Of a stretch of DNA of 64,000 bases, positions 5,599 to 63,463 are shown piece after piece (within the stretch, counting starts at the first letter, position 1; each line of letters begins with the position of its first letter). The notes below the pieces were generated by a model, which saw nothing but the letters and a program-made list of their open reading frames with translations, made no database searches and had not been told where the DNA came from. This stretch comes from a virus. The position numbers were made by a program, and so were the translations under genes. The stretch spans positions 1 through 64,000 of the IMG/VR virus record IMGVR_UViG_3300037324_000043; one strand, given 5' to 3'.

Positions 5599-6552
5599 AT
5601 GATTACAGCAAATCAAGAGAAAAAAACAAGTACAGAAGTTGTAAAGGCTTCGAAAAAACAGTCTGAAATTACAAATATTGTGCTTAAGAGGGTTGAAGCT
5701 TTTCAAAGATCTGGGGAGTTAAGACTTCCTAAGAATTACAGCCCTGAGAATGCTTTAAAAGCTGCTCAGCTATTATTGGCGGAACAAAAGGATAGAAACG
5801 GTAAATCTGTTCTAGAATCTTGCACTCGAACGAGTATTGCAAGTGCTTTGTTAAAAACGGTAGTATGGGGGTTGGCTCCACACAAAGGGCAAGTTTACTA
5901 CATTCCATACGGACCAAAACTAGAATGTAGTATCTCATATACTGGAAATATTGCGATTGCTAAGCGGTATGGTAATTTAAAGAGCATAAAGGCAAATTGC
6001 ATTATGGAAGGTGACGACTTCGAATTTGAAATTGATAGCAAAACAGGCTTAAGAAAAATAATTAAGCACTCGCAAACTTTGGAAAGTGTTGGATCTGGGT
6101 CTATAAAAGGAGCTTATGCAATTATTGAATTGAACGACGGAACTTTTGATGTTGAGATTATGAGTTTTTCACAGATAGAAAAGTCTTGGCAACAAGGAGC
6201 CACAAAGGGAGATAGCCCAGCTCATAGAAAGTTTCCTGATCAAATGTCAATAAAAACAGTTTTGAATAGGGCTTGTAAACTTCTTATAAGAACAAGTGAT
6301 GATCAAGTCTTATACGAGGATGATGATAATAAAGACTTGGACCGAACCAAAGAGGACGTCAATCAAGAAATTAATGACAATGCTAATCAAGAAATTATTG
6401 ACGTTGATTTTGAAGAAGAGGAAGAGATAGAATCCATACCTGATCCTACTCAAACAAAAACTCCTCCTAAGACTTCTAAAAAACCAGAACCTAAAGAAGA
6501 ACCACAGCCTAAAGAATTTCCAAAAGCAGGAACTCAAGAAAAAGCATTTTAA
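5599..6552 (+). CDS. recT: RecT-family ssDNA-annealing recombinase, 317 aa
   Basis: The core (about residues 30-240) contains typical RecT segments: LPKNYSPENALKAAQLLL, an SIASALLKTVVWGLAP helix, and YIPYGPKLECSISYTGNIAIAKR. The remaining about 70 residues are acidic and then Pro/Lys-rich, a disordered tail probably not needed for annealing. RecT anneals and exchanges strands at single-stranded ends for phage recombination and end repair. A metallo-beta-lactamase-fold gene follows after 3 bases, where an exonuclease often sits, and an SSB-like gene is nearby. Confidence 0.92.
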   Translation: MITANQEKKTSTEVVKASKKQSEITNIVLKRVEAFQRSGELRLPKNYSPENALKAAQLLLAEQKDRNGKSVLESCTRTSIASALLKTVVWGLAPHKGQVYYIPYGPKLECSISYTGNIAIAKRYGNLKSIKANCIMEGDDFEFEIDSKTGLRKIIKHSQTLESVGSGSIKGAYAIIELNDGTFDVEIMSFSQIEKSWQQGATKGDSPAHRKFPDQMSIKTVLNRACKLLIRTSDDQVLYEDDDNKDLDRTKEDVNQEINDNANQEIIDVDFEEEEEIESIPDPTQTKTPPKTSKKPEPKEEPQPKEFPKAGTQEKAF

Positions 6553-6555
6553 TCT

Positions 6556-7290
6556 ATGGAACTAAAAGTTATCGGCTCTGGAAGTCAAGGCAATTCCTAC
6601 ATCTTAACTAATGATACAAATGTATTGTTAATCGAACTTGGAGTGAATTTCAAACGCATCAAAAAAGCATTAGATTTTAATATATCGAATGTAGATGGGG
6701 CCTTAGTGTCTCATATACATTCTGATCACTCTAAAGCTATCAAAGATGCGGTTGAATGTGGAATTGAAGTGTATTCTGGAGCTGAAACTATTGAAGCAAC
6801 AGGCTTAAAAAATCATAGGCTAAAACCCATGAAGGCAAAAAAAGCATACATGATTGGATCTTTCAAAGTGATGCCATTCGAATTGCGTCATGATGTTCCC
6901 TGCCTTGGATTTATAATTAAGCATGAGGACTGCGGTAACGTCGTTTTTATTACAGATACTTATTATTCCCCATTTAGGTTTAAAGACGTGAACCAATGGA
7001 TTATTGAGGCTAATTATAGCCAAAGCATATTAGATGGAAAAGATGGCTATGGTAATCAAAATGATTTTCTTAGAAATCGAGTAATGAGCAGCCATTTATC
7101 CATTGAAAATTGCTCAAGTTTATTAGCTGCAAACGATTTGAGCACCACAAATAATATCGTGCTTACTCACTTATCTGATAGAAATAGTAATGCTGCTGAG
7201 TTTAAGGAATCCATAGAAAATCAAACCGGTAAGACTGTAAATATTGCAGAAACCGGACTAACAATAAATTTTAAAAAACGCCCTTTTTAA
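6556..7290 (+). CDS. Metallo-beta-lactamase-fold hydrolase/nuclease, 244 aa
   Basis: The metal-binding signature SHIHSDH (residues about 52-58, HxHxDH) is followed by RHDVP, FITDTYY, SSHLS and LTHLSDRN, placed as expected for the remaining His/Asp ligands of a two-metal MBL site. The overall pattern resembles YycJ/WalJ-like phosphodiesterases. Its position directly after recT suggests DNA processing in recombination, perhaps supplying nuclease activity in place of a RecE/YqaJ exonuclease; that role is inferred. Confidence 0.85.
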   Translation: MELKVIGSGSQGNSYILTNDTNVLLIELGVNFKRIKKALDFNISNVDGALVSHIHSDHSKAIKDAVECGIEVYSGAETIEATGLKNHRLKPMKAKKAYMIGSFKVMPFELRHDVPCLGFIIKHEDCGNVVFITDTYYSPFRFKDVNQWIIEANYSQSILDGKDGYGNQNDFLRNRVMSSHLSIENCSSLLAANDLSTTNNIVLTHLSDRNSNAAEFKESIENQTGKTVNIAETGLTINFKKRPF

Positions 7291-8365: not shown

Positions 8366-8743
8366 ATGGAAATAAAAGGAACATTAAAAGTAGTAGGCGA
8401 TACGAAAACCTACGGAGGAAATGGATTTCAAAAACGTGAAATCGTAGTCACTACTGATGAAAAATTTCCCCAAGACATTTTGGTAGAATTCGTCAAGGAT
8501 AAATGCCAAATCTTAGACAATTATGCTGAAGGTCAAGAAGTTCTTGTTGGCATTAATTTACGTGGGAGAGAGTGGGAAAGTCCTCAGGGAGAGGTTAAGT
8601 ATTTCAACAGCATTGTTGGCTGGAGGATAGGATTACAGGAAGGCGAACAAAAACCTACGCCACAGCCCTATAAAGAGCCAGAGTACCCTAACGAACCTGA
8701 TTTACCAATAGATGATGAAGAGGAAGATGATCTTCCCTTTTAA
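8366..8743 (+). CDS. DUF3127 OB-fold protein with SSB-like acidic tail, 125 aa
   Basis: Residues about 1-95 match the DUF3127 pattern (MEIKGTLKVV, then GGNGFQKREIVVTTDEKFPQ, then NSIVGWRI), a predicted OB fold common in Bacteroidota phages. The C-terminus is a proline-rich linker ending in DDEEEDDLPF, almost exactly the acidic protein-interaction tip of bacterial SSB. It probably binds the single-stranded DNA made during recombination and replication and recruits host SSB partners. The neighbours recT and the MBL gene fit. Confidence 0.85.
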   Translation: MEIKGTLKVVGDTKTYGGNGFQKREIVVTTDEKFPQDILVEFVKDKCQILDNYAEGQEVLVGINLRGREWESPQGEVKYFNSIVGWRIGLQEGEQKPTPQPYKEPEYPNEPDLPIDDEEEDDLPF

Positions 8744-32586: not shown

Positions 32587-33276
32587 TTAAGAAGCGTTAT
32601 CTTGGTTAAAATCTATACTCTCTTGCTGCATAGTGTATGATAATAAATCAGTCTCTTTAAGATTTACACCAAACGCCATAAGAACCCTTCTTACCATTTC
32701 ATTTTCTTCGCTAGAGTGGATATCCGCATCTTGGAAGTTAGCATCATCAGGGTTAAATAACTCTACATCATTTACACTTGTATAAGTCCATTTTGGATAT
32801 TTTATGTTTCTCAAATACGATATCCTTACTTTGCTACCGTCTTGAATTGGAGCAATCAATATATTTTTTCCAATAATTGTATAGACTGGATATTGAGTAG
32901 TGGCTAAGCTTTTTTGAATATTAAATTCCCTTCTGTTTCTGCAAAACTCTAGAGTTCCACCTTCTACTATTTCAGACTCATCTAGATATCTCCAATCGGA
33001 AGGAAGTTCTATGCGACTGCCTTCTACAGTAATTGGCTCGGATTCTTCAAGGTAGTGTAATATCTTTTCGCTGTAAGTATCTGGTATGTTAGCAATTCCT
33101 CCGCTAATTACACCTCTATTTTCTCTTACAATTAATCGATTTAAGTCATAAAAGTATTCTTCATTACGAGACTGTATGGAATCATGAAGAGCAAGCTCAA
33201 ATTTTCCTGGGGTAAAGTTCCCTCTCATCTGAGTGTTTATAAAGAATTCTACCTTCTTTTTAATTTGATCTATCAT
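32587..33276 (-). CDS. Probable tail ring/connector protein, 229 aa
   Basis: First gene of the leftward tail operon, downstream of a -7 box at 33306. The helical N-terminus (QIKKKVEFFINTQMRGNFTPG) and the beta-rich middle (IELPSDWRYLDES, then NILIAPIQDGSKVRISYLR) fit a connector/ring subunit of short-tailed phages. No catalytic motif. It sits next to a second ring-like gene and the nozzle. Confidence 0.7.
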   Translation of the reverse strand: MIDQIKKKVEFFINTQMRGNFTPGKFELALHDSIQSRNEEYFYDLNRLIVRENRGVISGGIANIPDTYSEKILHYLEESEPITVEGSRIELPSDWRYLDESEIVEGGTLEFCRNRREFNIQKSLATTQYPVYTIIGKNILIAPIQDGSKVRISYLRNIKYPKWTYTSVNDVELFNPDDANFQDADIHSSEENEMVRRVLMAFGVNLKETDLLSYTMQQESIDFNQDNAS

Positions 33277-57370: not shown

Positions 57371-57402
57371 GCTTATAGAGCGTAGCGAATAACTCTATAA
57401 GC
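57371..57402 (+). repeat. Stem-loop family A, copy 1 (loop CGTAGCGAATAA)
   Basis: GCTTATAGAG pairs perfectly with CTCTATAAGC (10 bp). Same loop core as copy 60532-60563 but different stem bases. Followed by ATCTAACTAAA and ATG 57426. Confidence 0.85.
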
Positions 57403-57425
57403 ATCTAACTAAATAAATTATCATT

Positions 57426-57566
57426 ATGAATGAATTAGCTAAAAAGATTTGCGAGTACAACGGTCAAAAAGGAACACCCAAGCAAGTAGAAAAATGTATT
57501 AAAACATTTTCGGGAAGTCTTGAAATTATGCAACAATTCGCAAAAGGTAGAATTAAAAACGCCTAA
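57426..57566 (+). CDS. Small protein, 46 aa
   Basis: ATG 57426 to TAA 57566 encodes a basic, helical peptide MNELAKKICEYNGQKG, then VEKCIKTFSGSLEIMQQF. Two cysteines. It is the first gene of the right module, 24 bases after a stem-loop. No family is recognised. Confidence 0.55.
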   Translation: MNELAKKICEYNGQKGTPKQVEKCIKTFSGSLEIMQQFAKGRIKNA

Positions 57567-57578
57567 ACAATTAAAACC

Positions 57579-57606
57579 GCTTTCTTTCATTGGCTTGAGG
57601 GAAAGC
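57579..57606 (+). repeat. Stem-loop family B, copy 1 (loop ATTGGCTT)
   Basis: GCTTTCTTTC pairs with GAGGGAAAGC (10 bp including two G-U). The loop is a one-base variant of ATTGGTTT. Followed by ACCTAACTTAAAAACCC and ATG 57631. Confidence 0.85.
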
Positions 57607-57630
57607 ACCTAACTTAAAAACCCTTGAATA

Positions 57631-57795
57631 ATGTTTATAGTAAAAGACAAAAACATCTACAGCACCAAAACAAAAAAAGTACGGTTTTTTATTGGTAAGA
57701 ATAGGTTGAAACCTAATAACACCTTTAATAAAACTAAGGATATTATTTATGTTGAATTTTTAACGTTGTTTCTACTCCTAAGCTTAAAAAAGTAA
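57631..57795 (+). CDS. Small protein, 54 aa
   Basis: ATG 57631 to TAA 57795. The peptide is basic, with a hydrophobic C-terminal end (VEFLTLFLLLSLKK) that could be membrane-embedded. No family. Lies between two stem-loops. Confidence 0.45.
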   Translation: MFIVKDKNIYSTKTKKVRFFIGKNRLKPNNTFNKTKDIIYVEFLTLFLLLSLKK

Positions 57796-57807
57796 ACACC
57801 CTCAAAC

Positions 57808-57835
57808 GCTGTAAAGTATTGGTTTACTCTACAGT
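57808..57835 (+). repeat. Stem-loop family B, copy 2 (loop ATTGGTTT)
   Basis: GCTGTAAAGT pairs with ACTCTACAGT, 9 of 10 positions with one A-C mismatch. It precedes ATG 57870 by 34 bases. The longer reading frame that starts inside this loop is therefore not used. Confidence 0.8.
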
Positions 57836-57869
57836 ATCAAAAATTATAAACCCAAATACATCAAAAACT

Positions 57870-58127
57870 ATGGATAATTTAACAACGCCTTTAATAAATC
57901 TAAACGGTAACAGCAAAGAGCAAATAAATGAACAGAATTTAAATGTTTATAGGAGTTTGAGCGCTACAATTCAAGCAATGAGTAAAACCGAGTATGACAA
58001 CGGGAGAAACTCAATAGACAAAAGCCATCATTTAAAAATGAGAGAAGAGAAGGCCGAAATTATACAAGGCTTAAAAAAATATCAAAACTTATTTATGAAG
58101 CTTCAAGTAGAAATAAATAAAAAGTAA
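57870..58127 (+). CDS. Hypothetical protein, 85 aa
   Basis: Helical, charged, with MDNLTTPLINLNGNSKEQIN at the start and REEKAEIIQGLKKYQNLFMKL near the end. The start after the stem-loop is used. Followed by the first copy of a 20-base leader repeat. Not recognised. Confidence 0.6.
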   Translation: MDNLTTPLINLNGNSKEQINEQNLNVYRSLSATIQAMSKTEYDNGRNSIDKSHHLKMREEKAEIIQGLKKYQNLFMKLQVEINKK

Positions 58128-58136
58128 GACCAACCA

Positions 58137-58156
58137 ACGGGAAACAATACCAACCA
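58137..58156 (+). repeat. 20-bp leader repeat, copy 1
   Basis: ACGGGAAACAATACCAACCA, exact copy of 58466-58485, each before an A/T-rich leader and an ATG. A shortened variant (CACGGGAA) precedes ATG 62180. Confidence 0.8.
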
Positions 58157-58171
58157 AATAAATTAAACACT

Positions 58172-58456
58172 ATGAAAACAGGACCCAACGCGCCATATGA
58201 CCCTAAAATAATCATAACAGGCCCAAACGCATCAAATAAGAATTTCGTTAAAACTCCTTCAGGATATACCCACACGCCAACGGGCGCAACTCTTGAAATA
58301 TACCTAAGCAAAGGAGAAGAGGACGACCAAGGAGAGATATTACAACATAATTTATACTATGTTTTAGATTTTGACGGTGAGCAAATCTCATGCGATTATG
58401 ACGACTATGAGCAAGGCAAACACGCAATTTTGGACCATTACGAAATTGAGGAGTAA
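58172..58456 (+). CDS. Hypothetical protein, 94 aa
   Basis: A Pro/Asn-rich start (MKTGPNAPYDPKIIITGPNA) leads to an acidic domain (GEEDDQGEILQHNLYYVLDFDG). No known family. It lies between the two copies of the leader repeat. Confidence 0.6.
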   Translation: MKTGPNAPYDPKIIITGPNASNKNFVKTPSGYTHTPTGATLEIYLSKGEEDDQGEILQHNLYYVLDFDGEQISCDYDDYEQGKHAILDHYEIEE

Positions 58457-58465
58457 AAGAGCAAC

Positions 58466-58485
58466 ACGGGAAACAATACCAACCA
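58466..58485 (+). repeat. 20-bp leader repeat, copy 2
   Basis: Second exact copy of ACGGGAAACAATACCAACCA, 18 bases before ATG 58504. Confidence 0.8.
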
Positions 58486-58503
58486 TTTTAAAATTCAAAA
58501 ATT

Positions 58504-58980
58504 ATGAATTATTTCAAGGACTGTAAAAAATTAGACGAAGCGAAGACACTATTTAGAAAATTATGCCTGAAGCTTCACCCGGACACGGGAGGAACAAACG
58601 AAGACTTTATTTTCATGTTCAACCAATTCAAGAGCTTCAGACCCTTAGAAGGATTTGAAGAACCTTTCAACGCTGAAAAATTCTATAATAACGAAGTAAA
58701 GGCATTTGATATTTTGGACGACGTGAAGGTAAGCTTTGTTGGTTCTTTCATATGGTTAGAAGACAATGAAAAAGGAGCCACATACAGACAGAAAGACATA
58801 ATTAATTCAATGGTTATCCAAGGCAAAAATAAGGCCCGCTTTGCCAAATTAAAGAAGGTTTGGTTTTTCTCCCCCGAAGGCTACAAACAGAAGGCAAAAA
58901 GTGGAAAGAGTTTGGCCCAAATTAAAAGCAAGTACGGAAGCAAGGAATACGCGACCAAAGGCAAACAGTTAGTATCCTAA
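58504..58980 (+). CDS. DnaJ-like (J-domain) protein, 158 aa
   Basis: Residues about 10-45 hold LFRKLCLKLHPDTGGTNEDF, a J-domain with the HPD tripeptide and a GG turn. The C-terminal 60 residues (VWFFSPEGYKQKAKSGKS, then IKSKYGSKEY) match the trailing region of small plasmid and phage J-proteins. Such proteins may recruit host Hsp70 (DnaK) for plasmid or phage processes. Context: right module with DUF3560 and RadC. Confidence 0.8.
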   Translation: MNYFKDCKKLDEAKTLFRKLCLKLHPDTGGTNEDFIFMFNQFKSFRPLEGFEEPFNAEKFYNNEVKAFDILDDVKVSFVGSFIWLEDNEKGATYRQKDIINSMVIQGKNKARFAKLKKVWFFSPEGYKQKAKSGKSLAQIKSKYGSKEYATKGKQLVS

Positions 58981-59005
58981 GTACATTTTTTATCTATTAA
59001 AAAAA

Positions 59006-59033
59006 GCTCGGTTCTATTGGTTTAGAACCGAGC
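59006..59033 (+). repeat. Stem-loop family B, copy 3 (loop ATTGGTTT)
   Basis: GCTCGGTTCT pairs perfectly with AGAACCGAGC (10 bp). Followed by AACTAATTTTAAAACCC and ATG 59059. Not a terminator: no T-run follows. Confidence 0.9.
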
Positions 59034-59058
59034 AACTAATTTTAAAACCCTTTTCACA

Positions 59059-59316
59059 ATGTCAGATTTAATGAGCACTAAGCGTAATGTTTACACTTTG
59101 AAATTTAGAAGTAGCCACGAACTTTATTTTTTTTCAACTGATGAACAGTTAAACGAAATTTTAAGGCTCCCGAACACTAAGCACGGAATCGAAAAAATTA
59201 AAGTTTACAACAATAAGGACCGATTTATAAGGGTATCAAAAACCGACTTTCAAAACTGGTTTAGTTTCAACACGGAAGCAATGGAGATACTAAGAAACAT
59301 TAATTTTTTAAAATAA
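59059..59316 (+). CDS. Hypothetical protein, 85 aa
   Basis: Unrecognised, with a beta-rich core (NVYTLKFRSSHELYFFS, then IEKIKVYNNKDRFIRVSK). Seven bases from the next gene. Confidence 0.6.
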   Translation: MSDLMSTKRNVYTLKFRSSHELYFFSTDEQLNEILRLPNTKHGIEKIKVYNNKDRFIRVSKTDFQNWFSFNTEAMEILRNINFLK

Positions 59317-59323
59317 AGTAATT

Positions 59324-59587
59324 ATGATTTATCTAAAAAAGTCAAACGTTCAAGAGATTGACAAACACATCAAAGACGCTTTTAAATCCAAGATAATTGA
59401 GGGCAAATTATTTGCCCTTTTAAAATTAGTTGAGACAAAAGGCGAGCCAATGCAGGCAGAGGACAACGAATATTTAAACGGCCTTAAAGTACTGGAATAT
59501 AAAAAAGGCTTTTATATAGGATTTAAAAAGCAGGAATTTTTAAATGGATCCTTCAAGCTTAACACAGTAGCACTAAAAACCACTTAA
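59324..59587 (+). CDS. Hypothetical protein, 87 aa
   Basis: Not recognised. Contains ALLKLVETKGEPMQAEDNEY and ends with short strands. Co-transcribed with its neighbours. Confidence 0.6.
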   Translation: MIYLKKSNVQEIDKHIKDAFKSKIIEGKLFALLKLVETKGEPMQAEDNEYLNGLKVLEYKKGFYIGFKKQEFLNGSFKLNTVALKTT

Positions 59588-59609
59588 CAACAATTCAAAA
59601 TTTAACACG

Positions 59610-60521
59610 ATGGAAAATTTAAACAGTTACAAAAAATTTGCGCCTAATGTATTTGTCGCAAAATGCCACGAACAAAACGAGAAAGGCGAAACGGTAATTA
59701 TTACAACCAAATACGGGCAGGAGCACGAAAACGAAATACACAATTATTTAGGCAAAACGGCAGATGATTTTTACTTGTATTCAATTACTAGGTGCGACGG
59801 GTTCAACAGTCAAGAGAGAGCCAAAAAGAAAGCGGAGAAATTAAGCGGTTACGCTTCGAACGCTGAGAAGCGAAGCAATGAAGCATATAAAAAATCTGAT
59901 ATGAGCGAGAGCGCAACGGGTATTCCGTTTGGACAGCCCATTCTAGTAGGACACCACAGCGAGCGAAGACACCGCAAAACTTTAGAGAGAGCATCACGAG
60001 CAATGGACAAGACCGTTGAAGAGAGCAACAAGGCAGAAGATTATAAAAGCCGCGCGGAATACTGGATAAATAAAGCTAGTAAAATCAATTTGTCAATGCC
60101 TGAAAGCTTGGAGTTTTACGAGTTCAAACTAGAGGAGGCAATCAAGAACCACAAATTTTTAAAGGACAACCCAAGCGAGAGGCGCCACGGTTATAGCCTG
60201 ACATATGCAAATAAGACAGTAAAGGAGACTCGTAATAATTTAAATCTAGCGGTTAGGCTCTGGGGTTCTGATGAAGTTATAAAACAAATCGCAGACGAGA
60301 AAAAAGAGAAGGCAGAAGCCGAAGCAGGGAAAAGCAAGAAAAAAACGGATATAGTTTTAAAATACGGTGGGTTTTTCGCCTTCAATAACGATCAATTAAA
60401 AAGTGGTCACGCTAAAATTTTGGAAGCTGGACACATTGAAAAAGGGGAAAAAGTAAGCCATTTAAAACATGGCTTATATATTCCATCTAAAAATGTAGAT
60501 GCTTTTTTAAAGGAGCTATAA
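59610..60521 (+). CDS. DUF3560-domain protein, 303 aa
   Basis: Residues about 60-210 carry the DUF3560 signature: ERAKKKAEKLSGYASNAEKR, then GIPFGQPILVGHHSERRHRK, then a helical segment. The family is common on plasmids and ICEs with unknown function, often alongside antirestriction proteins. The N-terminal and C-terminal flanks look separate. Placed in the accessory module with RadC and a J-protein. Confidence 0.8.
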   Translation: MENLNSYKKFAPNVFVAKCHEQNEKGETVIITTKYGQEHENEIHNYLGKTADDFYLYSITRCDGFNSQERAKKKAEKLSGYASNAEKRSNEAYKKSDMSESATGIPFGQPILVGHHSERRHRKTLERASRAMDKTVEESNKAEDYKSRAEYWINKASKINLSMPESLEFYEFKLEEAIKNHKFLKDNPSERRHGYSLTYANKTVKETRNNLNLAVRLWGSDEVIKQIADEKKEKAEAEAGKSKKKTDIVLKYGGFFAFNNDQLKSGHAKILEAGHIEKGEKVSHLKHGLYIPSKNVDAFLKEL

Positions 60522-60531
60522 ACTAACAACA

Positions 60532-60563
60532 GCCTGCAAGACGTAGCGAATATTCTTGCAGGT
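60532..60563 (+). repeat. Stem-loop family A, copy 2 (loop CGTAGCGAATAT)
   Basis: GCCTGCAAGA pairs with TCTTGCAGGT (10 bp, one G-U). Loop core CGTAGCGAATA is identical to copy 57371-57402. Followed by ATCTAACAACAATTC. Confidence 0.85.
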
Positions 60564-60613
60564 ATCTAACAACAATTCAAACCAGATCCACGGATCACAA
60601 ACCCCCAAAAATT

Positions 60614-60811
60614 ATGATTGAATACAGAGTTATCAACATAGATTATGATACTAATGATATAAAAGGTTTACCCGTATCATTAGATATTAAAATACCTTTT
60701 GAAATAATGGAGGAGGGCGAAGAGTCTATTGACTATTTTATAAGTGACGAAATATCTAATTTAACTGGATTTTGTCATTTTGGTTATAATAGATTAATTA
60801 TAAATAATTAA
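60614..60811 (+). CDS. Hypothetical protein, 65 aa
   Basis: Unrecognised acidic protein (MIEYRVINIDYDTNDIKGLP, then SDEISNLTGFCHFGYN). The next gene is preceded by the AACCCCCAAGACATGA leader. Confidence 0.6.
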   Translation: MIEYRVINIDYDTNDIKGLPVSLDIKIPFEIMEEGEESIDYFISDEISNLTGFCHFGYNRLIINN

Positions 60812-60825
60812 CCCCCAAGACATGA
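60810..60825 (+). repeat. C-rich start leader repeat, copy 1
   Basis: AACCCCCAAGACATGA, identical to 61111-61126 and including the start codon. Similar C-runs before the ATG occur at 60590-60613 and 61419-61431. Confidence 0.75.
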
Positions 60826-61058
60826 CACCAAAAACCAAAACTTACACTTACTCAATCAGGAACAACAAAGTTGAGATTAAAAAGGTCCAAAGAACTAAAA
60901 CACAATACGAGTATTTTTTAAAAATATTCATAGGCCAAAGTGACTATGAGTCTATTTTAATTTATCAACGAATGTGGTTAACAAAGAAAAACGCACTAGC
61001 ACACGCCAAAGACGCTATAATAGACGCCAAAAAGCCAAGACTAGAAAGAGTAATATAA
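60822..61058 (+). CDS. Hypothetical protein, 78 aa
   Basis: Basic, with TYSIRNNKVEIKKVQRTKTQYE and a helical C-terminus AKDAIIDAKKPRLERVI. Not recognised. Confidence 0.6.
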   Translation: MTPKTKTYTYSIRNNKVEIKKVQRTKTQYEYFLKIFIGQSDYESILIYQRMWLTKKNALAHAKDAIIDAKKPRLERVI

Positions 61059-61067
61059 CCCCTAACC

Positions 61068-61095
61068 GCTTCAGGCCATTGGTTTGGCTTGGAGC
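61068..61095 (+). repeat. Stem-loop family B, copy 4 (loop ATTGGTTT)
   Basis: GCTTCAGGCC pairs with GGCTTGGAGC at all 10 positions, two as G-U. Followed by ACCTAACTAATTTAAAACCC and ATG 61123. Confidence 0.9.
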
Positions 61096-61110
61096 ACCTA
61101 ACTAATTTAA

Positions 61111-61126
61111 AACCCCCAAGACATGA
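61111..61126 (+). repeat. C-rich start leader repeat, copy 2
   Basis: AACCCCCAAGACATGA, including ATG 61123. Confidence 0.75.
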
Positions 61127-62179: not shown

Positions 62180-62434
62180 ATGCACACAAATTTAGGCGCA
62201 GACGCGTTAAACACAATGGAAGGGTACAAGGAGCTATGTACCGATGGAGAGTTTGAAACCTTCGAAAACGGGATAATAGGTTTTGATATCGCACTTACTG
62301 GTTTTGGTTATCCAGCAATAGAAGCAAAACATAAGCTCATAAACATTAGGGATTTAGATTTCGATGGTTTTACAGCCGTTATGTATGTTTATTTTGGAAA
62401 ATTGCCAAGCGAATATTTAGACAAAGCACTATGA
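62180..62434 (+). CDS. Hypothetical protein, 84 aa
   Basis: Unrecognised acidic protein (MHTNLGADALNTMEGYKELC, then YPAIEAKHKLINIRDLDFDG). A shortened CACGGGAA leader precedes the ATG. Its stop overlaps the next ATG. Confidence 0.6.
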   Translation: MHTNLGADALNTMEGYKELCTDGEFETFENGIIGFDIALTGFGYPAIEAKHKLINIRDLDFDGFTAVMYVYFGKLPSEYLDKAL

Positions 62435-63384: not shown

Positions 63385-63398
63385 TATTATTAACAACC

Positions 63399-63442
63399 AG
63401 CGGAAGCCTAAGAAGCCATGCGAGATCACGACTCGTTCCGCT
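63399..63442 (+). repeat. Bipartite stem-loop before ATG 63464
   Basis: AGCGGAA (63399-63405) pairs with TTCCGCT (63436-63442). CGAG and CTCG form an inner helix directly next to the second arm. The tail ACTAACTTTAAATTCAAAACC resembles those after families A and B. Confidence 0.7.
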
Positions 63443-63463
63443 ACTAACTTTAAATTCAAAACC

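Follow-up and report, generated by a model that had tools for sequence, protein, structure and literature searches.

We identified a family of small RNA hairpins in the viral DNA studied here, the window, which comprises 64,000 of the 66,659 bases of the IMG/VR virus record IMGVR_UViG_3300037324_000043. Six stem-loops on the plus strand of a single operon combine two fixed loops with variable stems of 10 base pairs (bp). Covariation among these and further copies in other phages shows a selected helix of the sense-strand RNA, in which pairing and not stem sequence is under selection and in which two fixed loops are mounted on one chassis. The hairpin is very probably some form of cis-acting leader RNA. 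We suggest, with a probability that we place a little under one half (about 0.45), that this leader is read through its loop and a CUAA box on its 3' side, and that it marks the 5' side of phage gene units, where it brings about cleavage or protection.

Covarying stems and fixed loops

Database scans yielded 27 distinct members, no two of which have the same stem, from about 16 phages; 13 of these members belong to class 1 and 14 to class 2. The scan patterns required no pairing at the variable stem positions, and their matches separate cleanly into chance hits with at most 7/10 pairs and true copies with 9-10/10. The class 1 loop, AUUGGYUU, contains an invariant inner A-U pair, giving an 11-bp stem and a UUGGYU hexaloop. 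Class 2 is predicted to fold into 10 bp followed by a bulged C, a G-U pair, a U-A pair and an R-Y pair that closes a GNGAA pentaloop; the R-Y pair is A-U in 12 copies and G-C in two (L093:4371 and L121), and covaries in two phage lineages. An earlier reading of the window from its letters alone (the sequence-only reading) had reported six such hairpins, and all six were located, on the plus strand. Its full or nearly full pairing of 10-bp stems was borne out (10/10 in five copies and 9/10 in that at 57808), but the class 1 stem proved one pair longer. Its two constant loop types stand as well, but the class 1 loop is reduced to the hexaloop and that of class 2 is itself structured.

Pairing extends to 97.9% of cells in the 13 class 1 sequences and to 97.8% in the 14 distinct class 2 sequences, with 46 and 64 double-sided compensatory cells, respectively. 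None of 500 shuffles matched the observed paired cells, double-change cells or covariation score, and shifting the partner column by one lowered pairing to 29-48%. The ten outer pairs contain, on the sense strand, 32 G-U combinations versus one A-C, and the functional form is therefore RNA; of the two forms proposed by the sequence-only reading, RNA or a DNA cruciform, the first is supported.

Both classes share the same chassis of 10 bp, two variable bases (NN) and CUAA, the latter beginning two bases past the tenth pair with the sole exception of the copy at 57808, which has CAAA. The stem base is G-C (or G-U), C-G and Y-R in all class 1 copies except that of L188, whose third pair is A-U, and in most class 2 copies. 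A scan for 10 pairs, NN and CTAA that ignored the loop recovered five copies on the plus strand of the 3.85-kb module, whereas 300 dinucleotide shuffles averaged 0.007 and never exceeded one, and across the plus strand of the window it returned only the two known loop types. Patterns of loop and tail gave three class 1 and two class 2 matches, where 0.04 and 0.00 were expected.

The sister phages L093/L094, whose DUF3560 protein is 87% identical, and L120/G009 share the module, the promoter region and the hairpins, and at homologous positions they hold the same loops on different, still-paired stems. Between the copy at 59006 and its counterpart at L093:5222, five of the 10 pairs differ (three by double compensatory change and two by change to G-U), whereas the loop and the bases 3' of it are identical as far as the start codon. 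The copies at 60532 and L093:6748 differ by a single pair, A-U to G-C. A search of relatives for further copies or broken stems had been set beforehand as a check; copies were found with their stems still paired, and the claim that covariation within one genome reflected a selected element now extends to sister and unrelated phages, which keep the loops on differing but paired stems.

Other interpretations of these motifs were tried and rejected. Small reading frames that would end at the TAA of CUAA run open through many class 1 copies, but they lack a shared start, and at L093:5222 the frame is interrupted by a TGA. An H-type pseudoknot between UUGG and the adjacent CUAA has the required complementarity in class 1, but the intervening stem makes it sterically impossible, and class 2 lacks it. 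GGUUU can pair with a downstream AAACC in the majority of the window group's class 1 copies; L113/L117 lack this pairing, and leaders without a hairpin commonly contain AAACC as well. An attC-type DNA hairpin (RYYYAAC paired with GTTRRRY) would have a complementary GTT box at the stem base, and none lies immediately 5' of the copies; mimicry of clustered regularly interspaced short palindromic repeats (CRISPR) was set aside as the stems vary. The likeness of GUAGCGAA to helix 71 (H71) of 23S covers 8 nucleotides (nt); it is at chance level and is broken by the R-Y covariation, which also shows self-pairing of the class 2 loop where an antisense role had been considered. No Rfam ribozyme matched at the hairpins, and thus no known self-cleaving core is evident in them.

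Distribution among phages

Beyond the sister phages, class 1 hairpins are carried by L105, L113/L117, L188, L190 (two copies) and L175/L197, and class 2 hairpins by L012, L118, L119 (two copies), L121, L150, L156, L160 and L162. Unrelated phages are among the carriers, and in these the loops and the CUAA spacing remain fixed despite unrelated flanks. Two covariance models, R1 and R2, each trained on nine sequences, found copies outside their training sets at L119:6848 (E 6e-6), in L160 (E 1e-7) and at L190:7214 (E 2.5e-9). L121, a near relative of L118, matches Calle_1 at 100% and Cellulophaga phage phi38:1 at 92%; both of these phages carry the hairpin, and in phi38:1, a cultured isolate, it precedes gp056, at record positions 32,939-32,977.

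No true copy was detected in cellular genomes. The class 1 pattern gave 25 matches in 84,980 prokaryote species genomes, all with at most 7/10 pairs, and the class 2 pattern gave eight in 396 Bacteroidota genomes, all with at most five pairs; the latter was a pattern search that replaced a covariance-model search scoring only 16 candidates per genome. Because of this absence the element looks restricted to phages within the searches made, and is apparently not shared with integrative and conjugative elements, which the sequence-only reading had named among the places to search. Nor is there a copy in phi18:3, phi17:2 or the first 30 kb of Gundel_1. Comparison of open reading frames of at least 50 amino acids revealed no protein family common to all carriers, several of whose records are fragments. 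The earlier proposal of binding by a module-encoded protein is not supported, as most carriers lack the module and no protein common to them was found.

Rfam 15 gave nothing above chance at the hairpins of the window, L093, L105, L012, L119, L190, L162, L175 and L160, for the module even at E <=10. The literature searched contains no description of the motif, its novelty in print being unproven. Phage leader hairpins are a known kind of element; what appears new, within Rfam and the literature searched, is a family outside Rfam with two exchangeable loops on one chassis and a spread confined to viruses.

Placement and genomic setting

Copies lie at operon heads (57371, L093:4371, L120:129 and L118/L121) or between genes, 6-32 nt past a stop codon. 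The stem ends 16-27 nt upstream of the start codon in 17 of the 27 measured cases, with a mode of 24; all 13 class 1 copies fall within 16-34 nt, and some class 2 copies stand 43-105 nt away. As judged from these distances, the hairpins sit just outside the stretch covered by the initiating ribosome.

The downstream genes have no common function, and include those for small unknown proteins, a J-domain-like protein and others. Hairpins also lead the genes that follow a probable tail-tube gene and a probable major capsid gene, which we take to be such from their position and likeness. The two classes replace each other before the same gene: the EYDALPEEV gene is preceded by class 1 in L093 and by class 2 in L120, and, at apparently equivalent junctions, L113/L117 have class 1 but L156/L162 have class 2 ahead of the gene that follows the probable tail-tube gene. 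This exchange is our main ground for thinking that the two loops have a single function.

Two class 2 copies precede structured non-coding RNAs. In L119, one class 2 hairpin stands just before a permuted transfer-messenger RNA (tmRNA) and the other just after it; in L160, the hairpin is followed, near the contig end, by a structured non-coding stretch (L160:21-174, minus strand, z -3.5) that matched no family. Permuted tmRNAs (RF04321) are phage-encoded at L119:6889-7122 (plus strand, tag ANIFAINNAPVRLAA) and at L095:1491-1683 (minus strand). L095 has a DUF3560 homologue and no class 1 or class 2 copies. It also contains repeated gap hairpins at about 5900-5979, 7128-7195 and 8540-8634, of the form GTTGTT...GGGGC...GCCCC...CAACAAC, which recall solitary CRISPR-like repeats.

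The terminase of the window phage is 62% identical to those of Cellulophaga phages phi18:3, phi46:3, phi19:3 and phi13:2. Given these relatives, including phi18:3, which is classified in the genus Baltivirus of the Pachyviridae, a Bacteroidota host, of marine type, is near certain.

All six hairpins of the operon, and the flanks given here, are on the plus strand. The first leader contains the class 2 hairpin at 57371..57402 (10 bp, loop CGTAGCGAATAA), with AT-CTAAC at 57403..57409 and the ATG at 57426 lying 23 nt downstream. Class 1 hairpins follow at 57579..57606 (loop ATTGGCTT; AC-CTAAC at 57607..57613; next ATG 24 nt downstream) and 57808..57835, 34 nt before the ATG at 57870. The latter is the weakest copy, because one of its pairs is an A-C mismatch and CAAA replaces CTAA. 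The class 1 hairpin at 59006..59033, which has its orthologue in L093, is followed by AA-CTAAT (59034..59040) and, after 25 nt, by the ATG at 59059. The second class 2 hairpin (60532..60563, loop CGTAGCGAATAT) begins 10 nt past the stop of the DUF3560 gene, with AT-CTAAC at 60564..60570 and the ATG at 60614, 50 nt downstream; the last class 1 hairpin (61068..61095, loop ATTGGTTT) is followed by AC-CTAAC at 61096..61102 and by the ATG at 61123, 27 nt downstream. The constant tail reported by the sequence-only reading is confirmed for NN-CUAA, but the A-rich/AAAACCC stretch that it included is an ordinary leader of this phage, present also before genes that lack a hairpin.

A Pistol self-cleaving ribozyme (RF02679; 62094..62158, plus strand, E 2.8e-8) occupies a leader slot like those of the hairpins in the same operon, its 3' end 21 nt before the ATG at 62180; it is kept at L093:8545-8609 and visible in L120. 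A repeated leader, ACGGGAAACAATACCAACC, apparently unstructured, precedes two hairpin-less genes at 58136-58160 and 58464-58485 (plus strand) and recurs in L093 and L120. Another leader hairpin, whose loop is large, lies at 63398-63450 (plus strand; GCGGAA...TTCCGC, then TA-CTAAC), and a similar one is present at L095:4344-4441 (CCCTGCAT...ATGCAGGG, then AA-CTAAC). These two examples may belong to a third class of loop borne by the shared chassis.

Possible modes of action

We propose that a single RNA-binding or RNA-processing activity would read the loop together with CUAA. The two are predicted to be separated by roughly one A-form turn and to share a face of the helix, so that one protein could touch both, and the stem would act as a spacer of fixed length, which may explain how its sequence can vary while its length stays constant. 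The reader would probably be a host factor, the simplest partner because the carriers share no phage protein. The hairpin would mark, and then cut or protect, the 5' side of every gene unit in a long phage transcript, so that stability and ribosome loading would be set separately for each unit. A copy positioned ahead of a tmRNA, and a Pistol ribozyme in the same slot, favour a role in marking or making RNA 5' ends. Several points weigh against this proposal. The mechanism is inferred from sequence, the start-codon spacing described above fits translational control equally, and some class 2 copies stand far from the start codon. Protection from exonucleases would by itself need no conserved loops, and a small shared phage protein could be missed, several carriers being fragments.

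The main rival is translational control, in which a protein, be it a ribosomal or RNA-binding protein of the host or a small phage protein that escaped detection, would bind the hairpin just upstream of the 30S footprint and raise or lower initiation, in hosts that hardly use Shine-Dalgarno pairing. The narrow distance from stem to ATG, above all in class 1, speaks for it, and the bulge with its GNGAA pentaloop and the fixed hexaloop resemble protein operators. The operators of the MS2 and Qbeta coat proteins likewise combine a bulged stem of free sequence with a fixed loop near a start codon. Unlike those operators, the hairpins are clear of the start codon and also precede non-coding RNAs, no phage protein or regulator common to the carriers was found, and several class 2 copies are too distant to fit readily. 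We prefer 5'-end marking or processing, and consider translational control possible but less probable.

Antitermination or polymerase modification of the nut or put type, in which the nascent hairpin would act on polymerase so that it passes downstream terminators, we regard as improbable. The family is restricted to phages, a put-type element needs no phage protein, and the computed class 2 fold, with GNGAA and its covarying R-Y closing pair, fits the GNRNA pentaloop of lambda boxB. Small size, a variable stem and a box alongside are further likenesses to lambda nut boxB and HK022 put. However, the conserved single-stranded box lies 3' of the hairpin, whereas boxA is 5' of boxB, and the phages show no conservation on the 5' side of the hairpins. 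The hairpins also differ in their second loop, UUGGYU, in their number (up to six per operon, one per gene unit), in spacing coupled to start codons and in that no N-like protein was found.

Slightly less probable still are ordinary stability hairpins or terminators, with loops kept by descent and stems shuffled by recombination. The minus strand at 59006 resembles a terminator, and a terminator scan listed this copy alone, on the antisense strand and also on the sense strand, where the tail AACTAATTTT passes a loose rule. There is no conservation of the A-run preceding 59006, the tails read NNCUAA with no proper or long U-run directly 3' of the copies, in agreement with the sequence-only reading, and loops and CUAA spacing are constant in unrelated phages. 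The ompA leader and the processed leaders of T4 and SP82 occupy comparable positions, at the start of mRNAs and of gene units, but such stabilisers need neither a conserved loop nor a fixed 3' box. A DNA element, such as a cruciform or single-strand hairpin serving as a virion RNA polymerase promoter or recombination site, is very improbable: the palindromes do lie in intergenic gaps, but the G-U excess argues against a double-stranded cruciform or a template-strand hairpin, every copy is oriented in the sense of the gene that follows, and CTAAC has no conserved 5' partner.

Two known leader RNAs share the setting of the hairpins. A DUF805b RNA (RF02914) lies in a leader of carrier phage L012 (1516-1548, minus strand), about 25 nt before the start codon; this short leader RNA differs in loop and tail, and the hairpins do not match RF02914, so that identity was rejected. 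The Pistol ribozyme has a self-cleaving core without counterpart in the hairpins.

We speculate, although we hold it less likely than not, that the family may constitute a phage-only RNA code, in which two interchangeable loops on a rigid chassis, as two solutions for the same host target, would direct host RNA machinery to cut up long transcripts or license individual genes, along with a phage tmRNA, in a phylum that makes little use of Shine-Dalgarno pairing. The hairpins form a covariation-backed RNA family that lies outside Rfam and occurs in unrelated phages across an abundant but experimentally poor phylum. Because phage phi38:1, in culture with its host Cellulophaga baltica, and Calle_1 carry the hairpin, control of single genes without Shine-Dalgarno pairing in Bacteroidota phages is now directly testable, and the loops may be used as bait for the hairpins' partner.

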